DNA of 64,000 nt from Methylomonas sp. (GTDB taxonomy: Bacteria > Pseudomonadota > Gammaproteobacteria > Methylococcales > Methylomonadaceae): assembly GCA_002928965.1 (NCBI GenBank), contig PERU01000001.1, positions 62,001 to 126,000 of the forward strand, read 5' to 3'. Made by a program: the position numbers and the translations under genes. The notes under the pieces were generated by a model. That model had not been told where the DNA came from. It did not search any database and saw nothing but the letters and a program-made list of their open reading frames with translations. Of this stretch, positions 731-11,110 are shown in pieces; within the stretch, counting starts at the first letter, position 1; every line of letters starts with the position of its first letter.

Positions 731-829
731 ATGGATACCAAGAAAAAAAATATTCTGACAGCTGTAGTTCTGATTGCAGTGGCGTTAACGATTTACGTGT
801 TTGCAGTAATGAAGGCAATTTCGCAATGA
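731..829 (+). CDS. small single-helix cytochrome oxidase assembly protein
   Basis: A 32-codon frame starts MDTKKKNILTAVV and forms one hydrophobic helix after a lysine-rich N-terminus, so it should be a small inner-membrane protein with Lys residues on the cytoplasmic side. Its TGA stop overlaps the ATG of cox11, which indicates translational coupling. Small membrane proteins of this kind sit between coxA and cox11 in many proteobacterial oxidase operons and are annotated as cytochrome oxidase small assembly proteins. Position, overlap and composition support a real gene, although the length gives little statistical support alone. Confidence 0.72.
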   Translation: MDTKKKNILTAVVLIAVALTIYVFAVMKAISQ

Positions 830-1365
830 ACGACTTAAAGCAGAGAAATATCACGTTAGCCAAAAAGCTGGTGATTGTGGCTCTGCTGATGTTCGGCTTT
901 GGTTATGCACTGGTGCCCATTTATGACGTACTTTGCGATATTACCGGGCAAAATATTAAAGTGCAGGAATCTGCTTCTGGCGAAGAAGCGATGGTGGTTG
1001 ATGAAAATAGAGACATTACGGTTGAGTTTGTAACTTCCATCAACGAATCCACACCCCTGCAATTTCGTGCAGAAAAGCGGAGTATGAAAATACACCCCGG
1101 CCAGTATTACACCGTAAACTTTTACGCCAAGAACAATTTGCCAGTACAGTTGAAAGCACAAGCTATTCCCAGTATCACACCGGGGCTTGCTGAAGAATTT
1201 TTTAAAAAAATACAATGTTTTTGTTTTGAATTGCAGACGTTCGCGCCGCATGAAGAAAAAACCATGCCGGTCAGATTTGTGGTTAATCCCAAACTGCCGG
1301 AACGGTATAAAACCATTACATTGTCATATACTTTTTTTGATCGAACTAATAATACTGAAAACTAA
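826..1365 (+). CDS. ctaG: cytochrome c oxidase assembly protein CtaG/Cox11
   Basis: A membrane-anchored copper chaperone that helps insert Cu(B) into oxidase subunit I. One N-terminal transmembrane helix (about residues 14-33) is followed by a periplasmic beta-sandwich. The copper-binding Cys-Phe-Cys motif is present (C131 and C133 in IQCFCFELQ), as is the conserved cysteine C37 just after the membrane anchor (YDVLC). The length of 179 residues is normal for Cox11. The start codon overlaps the stop of the small gene upstream, and coxC follows 14 bases after its stop, so this is one operon. Confidence 0.95.
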   Translation: MNDLKQRNITLAKKLVIVALLMFGFGYALVPIYDVLCDITGQNIKVQESASGEEAMVVDENRDITVEFVTSINESTPLQFRAEKRSMKIHPGQYYTVNFYAKNNLPVQLKAQAIPSITPGLAEEFFKKIQCFCFELQTFAPHEEKTMPVRFVVNPKLPERYKTITLSYTFFDRTNNTEN

Positions 1366-2583: not shown

Positions 2584-2675
2584 GGGTAAGTAAATAAAAG
2601 TATATAACCGCGCCATTCTGGATGATTAAGGCCGGCTTGCCAATCAATTTAACGCCATCAGCAGCTTGGAATGTT

Positions 2676-3422
2676 ATGAGACTAATATTATTTAATAGAA
2701 CAGTGCGTATTTCCTGGATAGGATTGGGTATTTATGTATTGTTAATGTTGTTGTTGTGCAGTTTAGGGATGTGGCAATTAGGGCGCTCCGAACAAAAAAA
2801 ACAACTATTGCAACAGCAACAAATAGCCCTGCAAGCAGAGGGTATCGACTTGAATCGACATGAAAACCTGGATATTGAGGTGTTGCGCTATCACAACGTT
2901 ACAGTGTCAGGTCATTATGATACAGAGCATCAGTTTTTATTGGATAACCAGATAGTCGATGGCAAAAATGGATATTTTGTGATGACGCCATTTTTTATCG
3001 ACGGTCAAAAAATGGCTGTATTGGTCAATCGAGGTTGGTTACCGTTGGGTCAGGACAGAAACACCTTGCCCACTGTTGAAGTGCAGACATCCGCGGCTCA
3101 GATTAGCGGCCGCATTAATCGGTTTCCAGGCGTGGGTTTTAAGTTGAAGGGTGCCGAAATTCCTACAGATCATTGGCCATCGGTGGTGCAAGTGATTGAT
3201 AGCCATGTGTTAGCGGCAAAATTGTCATATCCCCTGGTAGACTTTCAACTTGAATTGGATTCATCAATTGCCGACGGTTACAAGCGGGAATGGAAAATCG
3301 TCACACCAATCCCACCTGAAAAACACTTGGCCTATGCAGTACAATGGTTCGGTTTGGCACTGACCTTGACAGTGTTATTTATTTGGATAAGTATAAAAAA
3401 TCGCAGTGAACACACAGCATAA
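2676..3422 (+). CDS. SURF1 family oxidase assembly protein
   Basis: SURF1/Shy1 proteins assist heme a insertion into oxidase subunit I. The N-terminal helix (about residues 12-29) is followed by the GMWQLGRxxQK motif, a periplasmic domain with DNQIVDGKNGYFVMTPF and LVNRGWLP, and a C-terminal helix ending in the AYAVQWFGLALTL signature. An alternative upstream ATG at 2622 exists, but the internal ATG gives the usual family length of about 248 residues and leaves room for divergent promoters. The next gene starts inside its 3' end. Confidence 0.93.
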   Translation: MRLILFNRTVRISWIGLGIYVLLMLLLCSLGMWQLGRSEQKKQLLQQQQIALQAEGIDLNRHENLDIEVLRYHNVTVSGHYDTEHQFLLDNQIVDGKNGYFVMTPFFIDGQKMAVLVNRGWLPLGQDRNTLPTVEVQTSAAQISGRINRFPGVGFKLKGAEIPTDHWPSVVQVIDSHVLAAKLSYPLVDFQLELDSSIADGYKREWKIVTPIPPEKHLAYAVQWFGLALTLTVLFIWISIKNRSEHTA

Positions 3423-3993
3423 AAAAAACCGCATCACCATCTTGGTGATTTTTGCCATGTCCATCGTGCCGTTCGGAATTGCATGGTATCTGGCTGAAAA
3501 TCCCGGCAAAGTTAAACTGGGCACCAACAATGGCGAGTTGATTTCACCGCCGTTGGCAACGGAAGTCAGCGATTTCATCGGTTATGATGCATTCAGCACA
3601 GAGAATCTCAAAGAGTTGCAAGGTCACTGGTTGCTAGTCAATCTCCTGCCGCCGGCTGAATGCGTGCCCGCCTGCCAGGATGGTTTGTACAAAACCAATC
3701 AAATTACCTTGATGATGGGCAAGGATATTGCCCGGATTCGGCGGGTGGCGATATTGTTTAACAAGCAGCAAGCGTTGTCTCAACAATGGCAAGACGACGC
3801 ACGTCTGCTCAAGGTCTCGCTATCCGCAAGGCTACAGGAAATCATCACTAAAATCGAAGGTGCCAGTCAGCCGGGTGCCTTGTTAATAATGGATCCGCTG
3901 GGAAATATAATGATGAAATATCCACCAGATTACGACCCTTACAAAGTCAGAAACGACTTAAGCAAGTTATTAAGAATTTCACAAATCGGTTAG
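3406..3993 (+). CDS. SCO-like thioredoxin-fold protein of the oxidase locus
   Basis: A 195-residue membrane-anchored periplasmic protein. After an N-terminal helix (about 10-28) the sequence follows a thioredoxin-like pattern: a strand at HWLLVNLLPP, a CxxxC pair (C86, C90) at the SCO1/SenC copper-site position, and a late strand-turn LLIMDPLGNIMMKYPP typical of SCO C-termini. I do not see the distal copper-ligand histidine of SCO proteins, so copper transfer is uncertain and a redox role is an alternative. The GTG start overlaps the surf1 3' end by 17 bases, and ctaA follows after four bases. Genes of this type occupy the same position in other proteobacterial oxidase operons. Confidence 0.75.
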   Translation: MNTQHKKNRITILVIFAMSIVPFGIAWYLAENPGKVKLGTNNGELISPPLATEVSDFIGYDAFSTENLKELQGHWLLVNLLPPAECVPACQDGLYKTNQITLMMGKDIARIRRVAILFNKQQALSQQWQDDARLLKVSLSARLQEIITKIEGASQPGALLIMDPLGNIMMKYPPDYDPYKVRNDLSKLLRISQIG

Positions 3994-3997
3994 GTAC

Positions 3998-5962
3998 ATG
4001 TTTAGAAAATTAAGTTTGTTCTGCGCTTTTCTGGCGTTGATAGTGATTGTTTTGGGTGCTTACGTCAGATTGTCGGATGCTGGACTGGGGTGTCCGGATT
4101 GGCCGGGGTGCTATGGTAAAGCCTTGGTCAGTGACAGTGCAGAATTCCAGGCTGAAGCCCAGGCTGTTTTCCCGCTACATCCTCTGGATACTGCAAAAGC
4201 CTGGAAGGAAATGACCCATCGCTATCTGGCGGGCGGATTGGGTATTGCTACACTGCTTTTGTTCGCCATATCCTGGCGTTTAAAACAGCAACGTTCTGCA
4301 TTAATCAGCTGGACGGCTATTTTGCTGCTATTGATTGCCATGCAGGCAGCACTGGGTATGTGGACGGTGCATTTAAAAGTCATGCCGATAGTGGTGACAG
4401 CGCATTTGTTGATGGGGTTCATCACCTTTTGGACCATCAGCTGGACATATTTAAGAAGTAACGCCGATGCAGTCCGGCGACCAGCCGCAGCAGGCCCTAA
4501 AGGACTGGCTTTGTTTGCCATGACTGTGTTGTTTTTGCAGATCGCTTTGGGCGGCTGGGTAAGCAGCAATTATGCCGCGTTGGCGTGTACTGATTTTCCA
4601 CGGTGTCAAGGGCAATGGTTACCCGATACCGGCTATGACGTCGCGTTTAACTTTATGTTGAACGATAGCAGCGCATTATCAGCGGCGGGTAAGGTTGCCA
4701 TTCATGCGTTGCATCGAGTCGGTGCGTTGATTACATTTTTGGTGTTAACGCTGACCATGCTGTCGGCTACCTCGGAAAACTATCCCAAATTGGTGCGCCG
4801 TAGTGGTCTGTTGCTGAGTGTTCTATTATTGCTGCAAATCGTCATAGGCATTTTCACAGTCAAACAGGGTATTCCTTTGTTACTGGCAGTGGTTCATAAC
4901 GCGTTTGCCGCGTTATTGATGTTGCCGCTGTTGGGCGTACTTTTCTTCAGTCGCTATGCACTTCCAAACGAAGAACCTTTAGGTTTGGAAGGGGTTGAAG
5001 CGCCGCTACGTCCACAAGAGCTTGTCGTAGCGGATGAAGCGGACTCCTTATTTCTGCGACTGAAAAGTCAGCTGAAAAAAACCCGCGGCAGTATTGGCGG
5101 GGTTTTAAGCAGTTTGACCCTGGGTGAAGATAAAGTCACTCGCGATTTGCTGGATGATGTGGAAGCCAACTTGATCATGGCGGATATTGGCATGGAAACC
5201 ACCACACAGATCATTAAGCATCTCAGAGAAAATCTGGAAAAAGATCAACTTAAAGATGTGAATGCGCTGAGTGAAACCCTGAAACAAAACTTATATGACA
5301 TGCTGCAACCGTGTAGCCAGCCATTGCAGATCCCGCAGCAAGACGGGCCATTTGTAATTTTGGTGGTGGGCGTCAACGGTGCCGGAAAAACTACGTCAAT
5401 CGGTAAACTGGCGCATCGGCTACAGGCGCAAGGTCATAGCGTCATGTTGGCGGCAGGAGACACCTTTCGCGCGGCGGCAGTGGAACAGTTGCAAGCCTGG
5501 GGAGAGCGCAATAATGTTCAGGTAGTTGCTCAACATACCGGGGCTGACTCGGCATCGGTGATATTTGATGCGCTGCAATCAGCCCAAGCCAAAGGCGTCG
5601 ATGTGTTGATTGCCGACACCGCCGGTCGCTTGCATACCAAATCCAATCTAATGGACGAACTGAGTAAAATCAAACGCATCATGGCTAAACTGGATGCCTC
5701 CGCACCACATGAAGTGTTATTGGTGCTGGATGCGGGTACCGGCCAAAATGCTTTGTCGCAGGCAAGATTGTTCAATGAAGCGGTGAGTTTGACCGGTTTG
5801 GCTTTGACTAAACTGGATGGGACAGCAAAGGGCGGTGTGATTTTTGCGCTGGCTAATCAACTGCATATTCCGATTCGTTTCATCGGTGTAGGCGAAACCA
5901 AGGAAGATCTGCAGGATTTTGATGCCAAAACTTTCGTAGACGCTTTGTTTGTGACAGACTAA
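3998..5962 (+). CDS. ctaA-ftsY: fusion of heme A synthase (CtaA/COX15) and SRP receptor FtsY
   Basis: One uninterrupted 654-codon frame. Residues 1 to about 320 are a complete heme A synthase: eight predicted helices, four heme-ligand histidines (H74, H136, H239, H300) and two periplasmic cysteine pairs (C32/C38, C197/C203). After a short acidic linker (about 321-348) residues 349-654 are a complete FtsY NG GTPase: G1 GVNGAGKTTSIGK (458-470), DTFRAAA (488-494), DTAGR (540-544), TKLDG (604-608) and the closing GVGE (630-633). The acidic A domain of FtsY is absent, so the heme synthase would be the membrane anchor. No stop codon or convincing internal start with a ribosome binding site separates them; the only nearby in-frame candidates are TTG codon 330 and ATG codon 308. 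ftsE follows after four bases, as after normal ftsY genes, while ctaB and rsmD, the usual neighbours, are missing. Confidence 0.9.
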   Translation: MFRKLSLFCAFLALIVIVLGAYVRLSDAGLGCPDWPGCYGKALVSDSAEFQAEAQAVFPLHPLDTAKAWKEMTHRYLAGGLGIATLLLFAISWRLKQQRSALISWTAILLLLIAMQAALGMWTVHLKVMPIVVTAHLLMGFITFWTISWTYLRSNADAVRRPAAAGPKGLALFAMTVLFLQIALGGWVSSNYAALACTDFPRCQGQWLPDTGYDVAFNFMLNDSSALSAAGKVAIHALHRVGALITFLVLTLTMLSATSENYPKLVRRSGLLLSVLLLLQIVIGIFTVKQGIPLLLAVVHNAFAALLMLPLLGVLFFSRYALPNEEPLGLEGVEAPLRPQELVVADEADSLFLRLKSQLKKTRGSIGGVLSSLTLGEDKVTRDLLDDVEANLIMADIGMETTTQIIKHLRENLEKDQLKDVNALSETLKQNLYDMLQPCSQPLQIPQQDGPFVILVVGVNGAGKTTSIGKLAHRLQAQGHSVMLAAGDTFRAAAVEQLQAWGERNNVQVVAQHTGADSASVIFDALQSAQAKGVDVLIADTAGRLHTKSNLMDELSKIKRIMAKLDASAPHEVLLVLDAGTGQNALSQARLFNEAVSLTGLALTKLDGTAKGGVIFALANQLHIPIRFIGVGETKEDLQDFDAKTFVDALFVTD

Positions 5963-5966
5963 AACC

Positions 5967-6623
5967 ATGTTGACATTCGAACACGTATGCAAGCGCTACC
6001 CTGATGCCGGCGATGCTCTGGTAGATGTGAGTTTTGGTTTGAGTCGTGGCGAAATGGCGTTTCTGACTGGCCGTTCCGGTGCCGGAAAAAGTACCTTACT
6101 AAAGCTGATTGCCATGATGGAACAGTGTTCGCGCGGCAATATCCTGTTGGATGGCAGGAATATTACCCGTATCAGTGAGCGGAAAATACCCTATCTGCGG
6201 CGGAATTTAGGCTTGATTTTTCAGGACTACAAATTACTTAACGACAGAACCGTATTTGATAACGTGGCCTTACCGCTGATCGTATCGGGTTTTTCGCATC
6301 AGGATATTTCGCGGCGGGTCCGGGCTTCGCTGGACAAAGTCAGTTTATTAGGCAAAGAACGTAAATATCCGCTGGCCCTGTCAGGTGGTGAACAACAACG
6401 GGTGGGCATTGCGCGGGCGATCGTCAACAAACCTAAGTTGATTCTCGCTGATGAACCAACCGGTAACCTCGACCCTGAATTATCGGCTGAAGTCATGAAC
6501 ATGTTCGAGCAATTCATGCAGGTTGGCGTGACGGTACTGATTGCCACCCATGATCTGGAGTTAGTGAACCGATTGGGACATCGGGTGTTGACTCTGGATA
6601 AAGGCCGTCTGATAGTGAGTTGA
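5967..6623 (+). CDS. ftsE: cell division ATP-binding protein FtsE
   Basis: ABC-type ATPase that works with FtsX to activate septal peptidoglycan hydrolases. The 218 residues include Walker A GRSGAGKST (35-43), the signature LSGGEQQR (138-145), Walker B LILADE (158-163) followed by the D-loop, and the H-loop histidine in ATHD. Length and sequence are typical. The start lies four bases after the ctaA-ftsY stop and the stop lies two bases before ftsX, so the three are probably co-transcribed, matching the widespread ftsY-ftsE-ftsX order. Confidence 0.97.
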   Translation: MLTFEHVCKRYPDAGDALVDVSFGLSRGEMAFLTGRSGAGKSTLLKLIAMMEQCSRGNILLDGRNITRISERKIPYLRRNLGLIFQDYKLLNDRTVFDNVALPLIVSGFSHQDISRRVRASLDKVSLLGKERKYPLALSGGEQQRVGIARAIVNKPKLILADEPTGNLDPELSAEVMNMFEQFMQVGVTVLIATHDLELVNRLGHRVLTLDKGRLIVS

Positions 6624-6625
6624 TT

Positions 6626-7588
6626 ATGAAACAGACCCATCGCAAGCATTCCAGACAACGCTTGGTAGAAATCTTTCACGCCTATTTGCTGAACCATGCC
6701 CATGGCCTGTTTTCCAGTCTGGGACGCTTGAGCAGAACCCCATTTACCTCCGCAATGACCATTCTGGTGTTGTCGGTAGCCATTTCGCTGGCAGGCTGCT
6801 TTTATATCGTGGTAGCCAATATCCAACAGTTGACAGGCAATTTGCAAGCCAGCAATCAAATGTCCCTGTTCTTGAAAGAACATATCAACGAATCTGTCGC
6901 TCAAAAAATGGCAGATCAACTGGCGCGTAACGATAACATCGAAAGCATTAAATTTATCAGCAAAAAGCAGGCAATGGATGAGTTTAAAGCCAACAGCGGT
7001 TTCGGTGATGCCCTGAATGCTCTGGAAGGCAACCCCTTGCCGAATGTGATCCAGATTCTACCCAAAGGGGTGCTGGATAGTCGCGAAGCCCTGGATACCT
7101 TAATGGCAGATTTTAAAAAAATGCCGGAAGTGGAATTTGTGCAAGTGGATATGCAATGGGTGGAGCGTCTGCAAGCCATCATGCGCATCGCCAGTCGTGG
7201 CGTGACTTTAGTGGGTGTATTGCTGGGGTTTGCTGTGACATTTATTACCGGTAATACCATCCGCCTGGAACTGCATAATCGCCAGGATGAAGTCGTCATC
7301 TCCAAATTGGTTGGCGCAACGCACGCTTTTATCCAAAGACCCTTCCTGTACACCGGTTTTTGGTTGGGATTTATCGCCGGTTTCTCGGCATGGTTGATTA
7401 TTACCATCATGCTGCTGATTGTCGAAAGCCCGGTTGAAAAGCTCTCCAGTTTGTACCACAGTTCGTTTGAATTGCTGTATTTGAGTTTTTCTGAGTTCAT
7501 TTTGCTGTTAATGATGGCCTCGTGCTTGGCCGTGCTGGGTTCATGGGCAGTGTTGCATTATCAGCTGCGGCAAATCAAACCCCAGTAA
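6626..7588 (+). CDS. ftsX: cell division permease-like protein FtsX
   Basis: Four-helix membrane partner of FtsE, 320 residues. A cytoplasmic N-terminal region is followed by the first helix (SAMTILVLSVAISLAG), a large periplasmic loop containing NPLPNVIQI, and three C-terminal helices; this is the standard FtsX plan. The ATG at 6626 is preferred over a TTG at 6620 that overlaps the ftsE stop. The gene ends one base before ycgN starts. rpoH, which often follows ftsX in gammaproteobacteria, is not here. Confidence 0.96.
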   Translation: MKQTHRKHSRQRLVEIFHAYLLNHAHGLFSSLGRLSRTPFTSAMTILVLSVAISLAGCFYIVVANIQQLTGNLQASNQMSLFLKEHINESVAQKMADQLARNDNIESIKFISKKQAMDEFKANSGFGDALNALEGNPLPNVIQILPKGVLDSREALDTLMADFKKMPEVEFVQVDMQWVERLQAIMRIASRGVTLVGVLLGFAVTFITGNTIRLELHNRQDEVVISKLVGATHAFIQRPFLYTGFWLGFIAGFSAWLIITIMLLIVESPVEKLSSLYHSSFELLYLSFSEFILLLMMASCLAVLGSWAVLHYQLRQIKPQ

Positions 7589-8018: not shown

Positions 8019-8483
8019 ACCGTTTATTCGATTGAGTTTTGCCCCCTTTCCGGCCCATAAATGCCGTTCTTCCTATCGAAAGCCCCGCCAGTTCCTGGTT
8101 TACGCATCGCATTCCGAAGGCAATACCCGTAATCACCAGGTCCGGTTGAATAACAACCGGGTGCCGGCAGGAGCGCAATGCTTTGCCGGTAATCTGACAC
8201 TGCGGCATCATCCCAAAAAAAAACCGGCATCGGTGCCAAAGCTGTCCAAAAGTACCCAGTCTGTATATTGTCAAGCTCAAAAAATCAACTTCGCAGCAAA
8301 ACACCAAATCTTCGTCACAAAACCATAATTTTTTTGTCACGGTCTCGTCACTTGGTTTCTCTATAAATCGTCTGGTCGTTCAGTACCACGTCCACTTGAT
8401 TCGACAGACGTTCAGGCGTTTGCCAATCGGGTAACCATCACCCTTTGCTTTGAGTTTGCCATTTGTTTATTAGGAGTTTGACC
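8019..8483. other. intergenic region upstream of the VPLPA-tagged gene
   Basis: I see no convincing gene here. Open frames on both strands have no family resemblance and no ribosome binding site. The last 150 bases hold an A/T-rich stretch, two TGTCAC/CGTCAC half-sites (about 8334-8351) and a TATAAA at about 8363, which could form a promoter for the gene at 8484. Confidence 0.4.
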
Positions 8484-9215
8484 ATGAATTTGAAATTGAT
8501 CGTCGCCGGCTTGGCGTTATCTGTAGTTGGCGCGAGCGCGCAAGCGTCGGTTGTCACGCAATGGAACTTTAATTCCAACCCGGCTGATAGTTCAACTGGC
8601 ACCGGTTCAACGCTACCGTCCATCGGTAGCGGCACTGCGGCATTGCTAGGCGGTGTTACGGGTTCGTTCAGCAGTGGTTCTGCTAGTGGCGGCTCTTCAG
8701 ACCCTGCCGTGACAGACAACTCGGGCTGGCAAACCACCACTTATGCCGCGCAAGGAACAGGTAACAAAACCCGTGGCGTGCAATTCAACGTCAGCACCCT
8801 GGGTTACGACAACATCACTATCAACTACGACTTGCGCCATAGCAACACCAGTTCACGCTACGAGTTGGTGCAGTATTCCCTGGACGGCATCACTTTCAAC
8901 GACAGCACCTTGTTCGATGGCAATGTCGGTGACACTTGGTTTAATAACCGCAGCGTCGACTTCAGCAGCATTGCCGGTGTAGCCAACAATGCCAATTTTG
9001 CCTTACGCATCGTTGCCGCATTCGCCCCTAACAGTTCGGCATATTTACCTTCCAACAGCACTTCAAACTACGGTACTGCAGGTACTTGGCGTTTCGACAT
9101 GGTCACCGTCAATGGTTCACCGGTCCCGATCCCGGCCGCATTTTGGATGATGGGCTCCGGTCTGTTGGGTATGGTCGGCTTACATAGACGTAAAGCACTG
9201 GCAACCACTGCCTGA
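8484..9215 (+). CDS. exported protein with VPLPA-type C-terminal sorting signal
   Basis: A 243-residue secreted protein. It has a signal peptide cleaved near AQA-SVV, a Ser/Gly/Thr-rich body with repeated beta-strand character, and a C-terminal tripartite signal: VPIPAAFWMMGSG, a hydrophobic helix and a basic tail HRRKA. Such tails are processed by exosortase/PEP-CTERM-type systems; no exosortase lies in the window. The ATG at 8484 has a good Shine-Dalgarno sequence (TTAGGAG, seven bases upstream), so an upstream GTG-type start is rejected. The body was not assigned to a known enzyme family. It is followed by a hairpin with a T-run and then another tagged protein. Confidence 0.85.
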   Translation: MNLKLIVAGLALSVVGASAQASVVTQWNFNSNPADSSTGTGSTLPSIGSGTAALLGGVTGSFSSGSASGGSSDPAVTDNSGWQTTTYAAQGTGNKTRGVQFNVSTLGYDNITINYDLRHSNTSSRYELVQYSLDGITFNDSTLFDGNVGDTWFNNRSVDFSSIAGVANNANFALRIVAAFAPNSSAYLPSNSTSNYGTAGTWRFDMVTVNGSPVPIPAAFWMMGSGLLGMVGLHRRKALATTA

Positions 9216-9295: not shown

Positions 9296-11110
9296 ATGTT
9301 TTTACGTTTACAAACACCTTATGCGTTACTGGCGCTATCACTTGCCGGAATTAGTTCTGCACAAGCCAGCAGCTTAACCCTGTTTCATAACAACGACGGC
9401 GAATCGAAGTTGTTCGGCGATGCCAATTTTGGTGGTGCTGCCCATTTCAAGACCACGTTGGAGCAATTGCGCACGGCCAACGCCACCCGCGATCAATTGA
9501 CCATTTCCTCAGGCGACAATTTCTTGGCCGGATTGGCCTTCAACGCCAGTTTGAGCAGCGGTCCACTGGGTTCCAGAACCTATTACGATGCTTTGGCCAT
9601 GCAACAAATTGGTTACGATGCCATCACCATCGGTAATCACGATTTCGACTTTGGACCCGCAGTACTGGCCGATTTCATCAGCTATTACAACACCCAAGGC
9701 GGCACAGCGCCTTTCTTGTCGGCCAACCTGAATTTTTCAGGCGAATCCGCTCTGCAAAATCTGTTCGACAGCGGCAGCATCGCCAAAAGCACTATCGTCA
9801 CCAAAAACGGTACCCACTACGGCATCATCGGTGTCACCACCGAGACTCTGCCCAACGTGACGTCACCGGGTAATGTGGTAGTCAATCCTGTCCTCAACGC
9901 CATTCAAAACGAAGTCACGTCACTGCAAAATCAAGGCGTCAATCGCATCATCCTATCGTCGCATTTGCAAGCTATCGGCAATGAACTGGCCTTGATTCCA
10001 CAACTGTCCGGCATCGATGTCATCATCGCCGGTGGTGGCGACGAACTGTTGCTGAATGCAGGCAATACCCGCAATACCCTGGCGCAACGTAGCGGCCCGT
10101 ATCCATTGACTGCGCAAGATGCCGACGGTAAAAACGTCGCGGTAGTCACCACGGTAGGCGAGTATTTGTATGTCGGTAAGCTGGATGTCGAATTCGATAA
10201 CAACGGTGAAGTGGTCAACGTATCCGGCAATCCGGTGGTCGTCGACAAAAATGCCGTGACCGCAGACCCAACTATGCAAAATACGGTAATCGCGCCGTTG
10301 AATGCCGCATTAACGGCAGCCAATGCTGTACAAGTCGGTACCACCGATGTTTTCTTGGAGCACAGCCAAGGCAACACTAACGGTCCACGGGTGATTCGTC
10401 AACGTGAGACCAATCTGGGTAATCTGGTTGCCGATGCGTTCTTGTGGGCGACGCAAAACCAAAACTCCGGCTTGAATGCCGGTAACACACTGATTGCCCT
10501 GGCTAATTCCGGCGGCATTCGTGAAGACCTCGACAATAATCAGGACGGCAAGATCACTCAAGGTGAAGTGCAAGCGGTGCTGCCGTTCGCCAATACGCTG
10601 GCGGTAATCGGCAACGTCTCGGTGTCTACTTTGGTTAGCGCGCTGGAAAATTCGGTGTCACGGATTCAGGCTAATGGCACCGGCACCGATGGTCGTTTTG
10701 CCCAAATTGCTGGATTCGAGTTCGATTACGATGCTAATCGGGCGGCTGGCAATCGCATCGTCGAAGTCAGGCTGGAAGACGGTTCGAAAGTCTGGTCTGC
10801 TAGCGAAGGTGAACTGTTTTCAGGTGAATTCGACATCGCCACCAACAGCTTCCTGGCCGGTGCCGGCACCCCGGACGGTTATAACTTCGGCAATTTAGTC
10901 AGCCGCACAGTGCTGAGCACCGGTTATGCCGATGCTTTGCTGGGTTATATCCAACTGGGTCTGAATGGCCATGTCTCAGCAAGTGACTATGCGTTGGCAG
11001 GTGAAGGCCGTATTAACGCTGTGCCGCTGCCTGCTGCAGTGTGGCAGTTCGCTATGGGCTTGGTAGCATTATCCGGCTTGGCACGCCGCAAGGGTGCTGT
11101 CGTAGCCTAA
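9296..11110 (+). CDS. 5'-nucleotidase-like metallophosphatase with VPLPA-type tail
   Basis: A 604-residue exported protein of the UshA/5'-nucleotidase superfamily. A signal peptide (cleavage near AQA-SSL) is followed by a metallophosphatase domain: NNDGES (32-37), SGDN (72-75), GNHDFDFG (113-120), SSHLQ with H223, and GGGDE (246-250). The family's C-terminal nucleotide-binding domain follows (NLVADA, NSGGIREDL, PFANTL). The tail is VPLPAAVW, a helix and a basic end. The usual metal-ligand histidines in the first motif (DxH) and in GGHTH are replaced by acidic or Gly residues, so metal preference may differ. A likely role is extracellular phosphate release from nucleotides or esters. A terminator follows. 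Confidence 0.88.
   Translation: MFLRLQTPYALLALSLAGISSAQASSLTLFHNNDGESKLFGDANFGGAAHFKTTLEQLRTANATRDQLTISSGDNFLAGLAFNASLSSGPLGSRTYYDALAMQQIGYDAITIGNHDFDFGPAVLADFISYYNTQGGTAPFLSANLNFSGESALQNLFDSGSIAKSTIVTKNGTHYGIIGVTTETLPNVTSPGNVVVNPVLNAIQNEVTSLQNQGVNRIILSSHLQAIGNELALIPQLSGIDVIIAGGGDELLLNAGNTRNTLAQRSGPYPLTAQDADGKNVAVVTTVGEYLYVGKLDVEFDNNGEVVNVSGNPVVVDKNAVTADPTMQNTVIAPLNAALTAANAVQVGTTDVFLEHSQGNTNGPRVIRQRETNLGNLVADAFLWATQNQNSGLNAGNTLIALANSGGIREDLDNNQDGKITQGEVQAVLPFANTLAVIGNVSVSTLVSALENSVSRIQANGTGTDGRFAQIAGFEFDYDANRAAGNRIVEVRLEDGSKVWSASEGELFSGEFDIATNSFLAGAGTPDGYNFGNLVSRTVLSTGYADALLGYIQLGLNGHVSASDYALAGEGRINAVPLPAAVWQFAMGLVALSGLARRKGAVVA

Follow-up and report, generated by a model that had tools for sequence, protein, structure and literature searches.

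The window analysed here, a stretch of 64,000 nucleotides from a Methylomonas sp. genome (positions 62,001 to 126,000 of contig PERU01000001.1, GenBank assembly GCA_002928965.1), carries a gene in which heme A synthase, CtaA, and the receptor of the signal recognition particle (SRP), FtsY, share a single uninterrupted frame of 654 codons (3998..5962, + strand, as are all features of the window named below; ATG start, TAA stop); homologous fusions exist in its relatives. An in-frame CtaA-FtsY fusion is what a preliminary description of this DNA had proposed, and the matches to protein families bear it out. Pfam places COX15-CtaA (PF02628) at residues 4-309 (255.8 bits, above cut-off), SRP54_N at residues 366-432 and the SRP54 GTPase domain at residues 451-651, and the FtsY part scores 365 bits against the NCBIfam ftsY equivalog TIGR00064, for which the cut-off is 260.7. 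SRP_SPB, the signal-peptide-binding M domain, finds no match in the fusion, which sets its FtsY apart from Ffh. In a search of solved structures the protein aligns to E. coli FtsY from residue 348 onward (E ~1e-111), and its CtaA part matches 8aw5, named a heme O oxygenase (E 1.8e-12), and the heme A synthase 6a2j (E 1e-4), which we take to be the CtaA of B. subtilis.

The CtaA part comprises two four-helix bundles. The N-terminal bundle (residues 1-155; 3998..4462), the half for the substrate heme O, carries C32, C38, E71, H74 and H136, which align to C35/C42, E57, H60 and H123 of 6a2j; it is intact in the window copy and decayed in many relatives. The C-terminal, heme b half (residues 160-318; 4475..4951) carries the cysteine pair C197/C203 (4586..4606) in the second large outer loop, ECL3, and the two heme b ligands H239 (codon at 4712..4714) and H300 (4895..4897), these four residues aligning to C191/C197, H216 and H278. 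For these equivalences we assume that the chain numbering of 6a2j equals the published B. subtilis numbering plus 6. All four heme histidines and both cysteine pairs are thus present, as claimed earlier, and the window protein passes as a CtaA in its above-cut-off PF02628 score, its eight helices, its catalytic-half residues and both its heme b ligands. The eight helices are seen as eight hydropathy segments, the cysteine pairs lying in the loops between helices 1-2 and 5-6. Since these loops are the outer loops ECL1 and ECL3 of CtaA, according to PMC8239418, helix 8 should exit into the cytoplasm, where FtsY must be.

Helix 8 is followed by a fast-evolving linker (residues 319-349; 4952..5044) that contains no ATG or GTG and a single TTG, codon 330, which is also the sole possible internal start in residues 319-366; ATG 308 and TTGs 307, 309 and 312 lie within or at helix 8. 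The complete NG domain of FtsY then occupies residues 350-654 (5045..5959), as delimited by Pfam, TIGR00064 and the structure alignment. The N-terminal acidic A domain with its lipid-binding start is absent, its position being taken by CtaA and a linker of about 31 residues; the earlier picture of an FtsY stripped of its A domain and joined to an eight-helix heme protein stands. This loss counts against a standard FtsY and would not count against FtsY function, because an FtsY held by a transmembrane domain is reported to function in vivo (Zelazny 1997, as cited in PMC2780400).

No ftsY other than the fusion was found in a search of the fusion's own genome, which is 99.99% complete in 85 contigs. 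The other FtsY-like matches there, considered as second ftsY genes, were rejected as Ffh (contig C22; 567.6 bits to TIGR00959, with SRP_SPB) and FlhF (C26; 267.2 bits to TIGR03499). A stand-alone ftsY or a break at the junction had been named in advance as evidence that would dispose of the fusion; the genome yields only Ffh and FlhF, and the frame is open across the junction here and stop-free in 168 distinct fused frames.

The same architecture, which the preliminary description had suggested seeking in relatives, is spread over six families of the order and is found in many methane-oxidising bacteria. A first survey of 61 genomes, our own and 60 relatives from families denoted f1 to f8, found one frame over both parts in 54 of 54 genomes of six Methylococcales families (f1-f6) and separate genes in all seven genomes of the neighbouring families f7 and f8 (fused, 0/7); within the count of 54, G034 is scored as fused on a single 787-residue frame, and G017 begins at a contig edge. 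A survey of 301 genomes of the order was consistent with this among the matches listed. Outside the order, no match spanning CtaA and FtsY appeared among the best matches listed for 369 genomes of the class (365 from other orders, 4 from this one) or for 398 genomes of the phylum, surveys in which most families have few genomes, so rare fusions could escape. A scan of public genomes puts names to fused taxa: Methylomonas, Methylobacter, Candidatus Methylobacter oryzae and titanis, Crenothrix polyspora, Methylothermaceae, a sponge symbiont and other Methylococcales, the fused frame being present in all 31 named loci (L147-L177; L150, L171 and L176 are cut by an edge). The nearest named relatives of the window fusion are 71-75% identical to it over 256 residues, and from them we take the window to be Methylomonas-like. 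Three fusion frames, L071 (G034; 787 residues), L115 (G005; 775) and L075 (G046; 864), have about 100-220 extra residues before the CtaA start, which may be untranslated open frame.

The preliminary description had ctaB and rsmD gone and suggested a deletion as the fusing event, and on both counts the data go the other way. Both genes lie on contig C41 with about 3 kb between them (ctaB located by TIGR01473, rsmD by TIGR00095), and gene orders fit an inversion; deletion as the origin was accordingly rejected. In the unfused families f7 and f8 (L097-L101) coxA-coxC-SURF1-(redox-disulfide gene)-ctaA-ctaB runs one way and ftsY-ftsE-ftsX-rpoH the opposite way, with two M16 peptidase genes and rsmD beyond ftsY, and in f7 coaD as well. 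The fused locus of f6 (L287) reads coxA-coxC-SURF1-redox gene-[ctaA-ftsY]-ftsE-ftsX-rpoH, then ctaB reversed, then M16-M16-rsmD-coaD; the names rpoH, M16, coaD, coxA and coxC are ours, assigned by recognition. This is the order obtained by inverting the ctaB-to-ftsY segment of the f7/f8 arrangement, within which a few other genes vary from family to family. The inversion's second breakpoint, at which ctaB and M16-M16-rsmD meet head to head, persists in our own genome (L288, contig C41) and at L290-L294, and is the scar of the inversion that made the fusion; in our own genome and five others it lies away from the fusion, on another contig or far off. The gene orders thus show that the fusion originated by inversion. 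The two gene clusters lay tail to tail, and when the ftsY-ftsE-ftsX-rpoH-ctaB segment was inverted, in the ancestor shared by the six families, the 5' end of ftsY came to follow the 3' end of ctaA and the two became one frame.

A tree of FtsY NG domains fits a single origin, with moderate supports: all fused rows form one clade (support 92 with 79 rows, 93 with 167 and 94 with 164), to which f8 is sister (90) and f7 next (89) in the 79-row tree. The tree is rough, its supports lying between 89 and 94 and some rows contradicting family codes (f4 g9 falls with g34 of f1). Fission of an ancestral fusion in f7 and f8 is not favoured, the free FtsYs of those families branching below the fused clade; L179, whose source is a gammaproteobacterium lying outside the clade, also speaks against it, its two genes being separate and arranged tail to tail.

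To follow the fate of the CtaA part we collected the 168 distinct fused frames, counting copies identical in their last 330 residues once, and aligned them with nine free CtaAs, in which all nine key residues are kept. Leaving out four frames cut by an edge or containing unknown bases (L019, L107, L150, L171) gives 164 complete fusions, from 38 genus labels plus the named loci. Among these 164 the two halves have fared very differently. In the N half C32 is kept in 124, C38 in 123, E71 in 69, H74 in 108 and H136 in 109, and all five in only 57; E71 is the most variable, and the other four are kept together in 76. In the C half C197 and C203 are each kept in 161, H239 in 162 and H300 in 163, and all four in 161. 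Misalignment was considered as the cause of the N-half losses and rejected: a tolerance of three positions on either side barely alters the counts (on 168 rows, from 110 to 112 for H74 and from 112 to 115 for H136), and with it at least one N-half histidine is still gone in 64 of the 164 and both in 42. Cut or gap-bearing frames as a cause were checked by the removal of the four rows and recount on 164; on all 168, the N half is complete in 58 and the C half in 164.

The losses in the N half have recurred. On the FtsY tree the fewest changes that account for the N-half state are 17, against 3 for the C-half state; single residues need 7-26 changes in the N half and 1-3 in the C half. Among the 107 rows that have lost N-half residues (N-lost), just 10 of the first 349 columns hold one residue in at least 93% of rows: M1, R3, G185, W187, C197, P201, C203, H239, R240 and H300. 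Start residues aside, these are the heme b ligands, their neighbours and the outer cysteine pair. Between close pairs drawn from the 168-frame set, the median ratio of nonsynonymous to synonymous substitution (dN/dS) in the N half is higher in the 33 N-lost pairs (0.238) than in the 21 N-intact ones (0.076), meaning that the N half is relaxed but not free; in the C half the medians are 0.141 (N-lost) and 0.078 (N-intact), while FtsY stays at 0.048-0.049 in N-intact and N-lost pairs alike. The linker is the fastest-evolving part, with medians of 0.29 (N-intact) and 0.38 (N-lost).

The membrane topology has mostly outlived the catalytic residues. By simple hydropathy 148 of the 168 frames show a 4+4 helix count, 92 of them N-lost. 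Two forms of genus label g32, and likewise L166, are without helices two and three; the six that remain are an even number, which keeps FtsY inside. The remaining 17 give other counts, some odd, by what is a crude method. FtsY itself scores 362-369 bits in four decayed fusions, against 365 in the window.

A second, free CtaA is encoded in our own genome at C1:248058-248945 (- strand), and such a gene accompanies the fusion in 47 of 49 fused genomes scanned; none was found in G184 and G040, while the copy in G063 is incomplete. All 12 of these proteins that were examined carry asparagine at the first histidine (H60) and keep the other three histidines; they have the first cysteine pair and lack the second, resembling type 1.3 of the heme A synthase classification in PMC8239418. 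Between genera this second CtaA is 63-76% identical. That of G057 (L144) belongs to a 718-residue open frame whose first 400 or so residues, ahead of the CtaA domain, match no Pfam family at E 0.001 and may be untranslated. Five genomes at least 90% complete have a fusion as their sole, well-scoring CtaA (G170, G184, G200 and G251 of g34; G040 of f5), and in all five the N half is intact. The free second CtaA has probably taken over heme A synthesis where the fused one has decayed, to judge from these gene contents.

We conclude, with a probability of about 0.8, that CtaA has been co-opted to hold the SRP receptor permanently in the membrane, as an anchor that contains heme b. The key observation is that N-half residues have been lost while FtsY and, mostly, the number of helices have stayed, which indicates that the CtaA part is kept as an anchor and not just as an enzyme. 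The fusion product, the genome's only detected SRP receptor, would be an integral membrane protein in which helix 8 of a CtaA-type heme protein carries the NG GTPase on its cytoplasmic face, this tether replacing the peripheral, lipid-binding A domain of other FtsYs. The C half would still bind heme b, and its folded, heme-filled bundle would be the working anchor. The protein may be trimeric, as in Aquifex HAS (heme A synthase), in which case a single heme-filled core would bear three NG domains, with dispensable N bundles at the rim, an arrangement that fits the observed decay pattern. From what is known of the family, the full-length protein would use the usual GTPase cycle to dock complexes of Ffh and ribosome at the membrane. 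The receptor would be bound to the membrane permanently. Where the N half is intact, as in the window, the protein is probably still a heme A synthase too.

Several observations weigh against this conclusion. Two fusions of g15, G144 (L280) and G299 (L255), lack the cysteine pair and H239, and G299 lacks H300 as well; G178 (g36) lacks the cysteine pair alone. Binding of heme b thus appears not to be indispensable in every lineage. Free CtaAs with E57K, E57N, H123N or H60N are on record (PMC8239418), so that loss of one N-half residue is no proof of an inactive enzyme. The takeover by the second CtaA is drawn from few contrasts, and two genomes show a single weak CtaA match and no second CtaA: G253 (92% complete, 320 contigs, N-lost) and G295 (90% complete, 550 contigs, outside the alignment); in both the weak match is probably a decayed fusion. 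A third search, of 75 genomes picked for weak scores, located further fusions and gave no FtsY match in ten (G117, G218, G230, G237, G248, G267, G290, G292, G296, G298), CtaA alone being found in G117 and G292. Fusion frames are broken in G106, G207, G293 and G302; a number of other frames are cut off where a contig ends, and in G270, G283 and G294 the FtsY part alone is seen. We take these missing FtsYs, broken frames and edge cuts to be probable gaps and errors of draft genomes. Finally, the case being built from sequence, proteolysis in the linker could still release FtsY.

Such release belongs to a broader alternative, that the one frame yields two proteins, an internal start or a linker protease freeing a soluble or peripheral FtsY and the fusion serving translational coupling. 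E. coli FtsY is clipped between its A and N domains. The fast evolution of the linker is what a flexible, cleavable stretch would show, and TTG 330 is in frame in the window. Yet in an earlier alignment with 95 fusion rows, some of them near-duplicates or cut, the linker lacks ATG in 89, both ATG and GTG in 44, and all of ATG, GTG and TTG in 12, so internal starts there cannot be the general mechanism; the junction is free of stops in all 168 distinct frames; and the membrane half persists after loss of its key residues, though a released FtsY would not need it. We consider this explanation quite unlikely. The near-absence of ATG from the linker (4952-5095 in the window) might reflect selection against internal starts or residue composition. 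It is also unlikely, if less so, that the fusion is maintained as a bifunctional enzyme coupling heme A supply to oxidase insertion, with selection acting on CtaA activity. The gene does sit within an oxidase cluster, the window copy is intact, and so are the N halves of the five genomes, at least 90% complete, whose sole well-scoring CtaA is fused. Against this, one or more of the five N-half residues are missing from 107 of the 164 complete fusions, one or both N-half histidines are gone from 64 even when the three-position tolerance is allowed, and 47 of the 49 fused genomes examined also encode a free CtaA.

A stronger rival, to which we nevertheless give rather less than even odds, is a frozen accident, in which any helix bundle would suffice, the heme b site merely holding the fold and anchoring being the sole function. 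It is favoured by G144 and G299, in which the fusion and FtsY have outlasted most or all of the C-half site, and by g32, which dispensed with a helix pair without loss of FtsY. The heme b site and its surroundings are, however, nearly all that survives in the 107 N-lost rows, the rest having drifted, and loss of the C site needs 3 changes where the N site needs 17. An artefact of assembly or annotation, which the unusual architecture and a few draft genomes with broken frames might suggest, was rejected, its probability being negligible in the face of the same architecture throughout the relatives and of 168 distinct fused frames, some from genomes in one or few contigs. To return to the co-opted anchor, the C bundle might act as sensor as well, its bis-histidine heme b inside the membrane and its redox-active outer cysteine pair tuning the SRP receptor GTPase. 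The state of the bundle would follow oxygen, redox potential or heme supply, and the signal would pass through helix 8 and the short linker to the GTPase. Our main reason for considering a role beyond anchoring is the retention of the cysteine pair beside the heme b ligands, and the main reason for doubting it is the g15 exceptions; we think the sensor reading quite unlikely. G299 and G144 keep eight hydrophobic segments and a full-scoring FtsY despite their losses of C-bundle heme ligands; they are possible heme-free anchors and, as such, a natural control for heme sensing.

The neighbours of the fusion in the window are those of an oxidase gene cluster upstream, including ctaG/cox11 (826..1365) and SURF1 (2622..3422), both identified by Pfam, and, directly downstream, the ABC ATPase gene that we name ftsE from its position (5967..6623; Pfam ABC_tran), followed by ftsX (6620..7588; Pfam). 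The supply of FtsY is thereby tied to the oxidase locus, as had been supposed. Directly upstream of the fusion a gene at 3406..3993 encodes a PA0111-like redox-disulfide protein, a weak match (46.8 bits against a cut-off of 230); its GTG start overlaps SURF1 and its stop ends 5 bases before the fusion ATG. This gene precedes ctaA in fused and unfused relatives alike, and it adjoins the fusion wherever the related stretches reach, with the exception of L171-L173, in which none was found upstream. Most related loci have ftsE 3' of the fusion. Exceptions are the f4 loci L078-L080 and L082-L086, where no ftsE was found and where some of the stretches end shortly beyond the fusion. Further along the window, the proteins of 8463-9215 and 9296-11110 end in a VPxPAA-type motif, a hydrophobic stretch and a basic tail, which resemble PEP-CTERM/VPxxA sorting signals.

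Comparison with known systems places the window protein among FtsYs by its complete NG domain, its score far above the TIGR00064 cut-off, its status as the only copy found and its position beside ftsE/ftsX, and sets it apart from them by its missing A domain and its junction to an eight-helix membrane protein. FtsYs with a natural integral anchor have been described and CtaA-FtsY is likewise naturally anchored; in those descriptions the anchor is a transmembrane or lipid-binding helix, not a heme protein. The laboratory fusion of NG to an unrelated integral membrane polypeptide (Zelazny 1997, via PMC2780400) also has NG on an integral membrane tether and is reported to function in vivo, but it is engineered, whereas CtaA-FtsY is natural, occurs in six families and is the only receptor form found there. 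On the CtaA side, heme A synthases of the CtaA/Cox15 class B type 1.1 (6a2j; PMC8239418) share the eight helices, two cysteine pairs and four histidines; unlike them the fusions bear a C-terminal FtsY, and 107 of 164 have lost one or more N-half residues. CtaA-CtaB fusions (PMC8239418, PMC9145763) likewise have CtaA as part of a natural fusion, but there the partner is the previous enzyme of the same pathway and not an unrelated targeting GTPase. A search of the full-text literature, by titles and abstract openings and with most subscription journals outside it, turned up no paper describing a CtaA-FtsY fusion. What CtaA-FtsY adds to the CtaA-CtaB fusions and transmembrane-helix FtsYs already described would thus be an SRP receptor with a new kind of anchor.

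The practical consequence concerns annotation, which may label the fusions solely as heme A synthase or solely as FtsY. Where a species has a decayed fusion, a heme A synthase may be attributed to it in error; the 107 complete fusions that have lost N-half residues should not be filed as such on sequence alone. The biological consequence concerns FtsY as the bacterial SRP receptor, an essential protein that brings ribosomes to the cell membrane and whose need to cycle on and off the membrane is debated: if the protein stays whole, the sole receptor found in six families cannot leave the membrane. The fusions would also be a many-times-repeated case of an enzyme turned anchor, in which the active half falls into decay but the topology persists, as does one cofactor site, and the pattern of decay lets one read which parts an SRP receptor anchor needs. 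Should the heme b site regulate targeting as well, this would be a new kind of control over membrane protein insertion, membrane protein targeting with a built-in heme switch, by which the insertion of respiratory oxidases and methane monooxygenase would be matched to the respiratory state of the cell.

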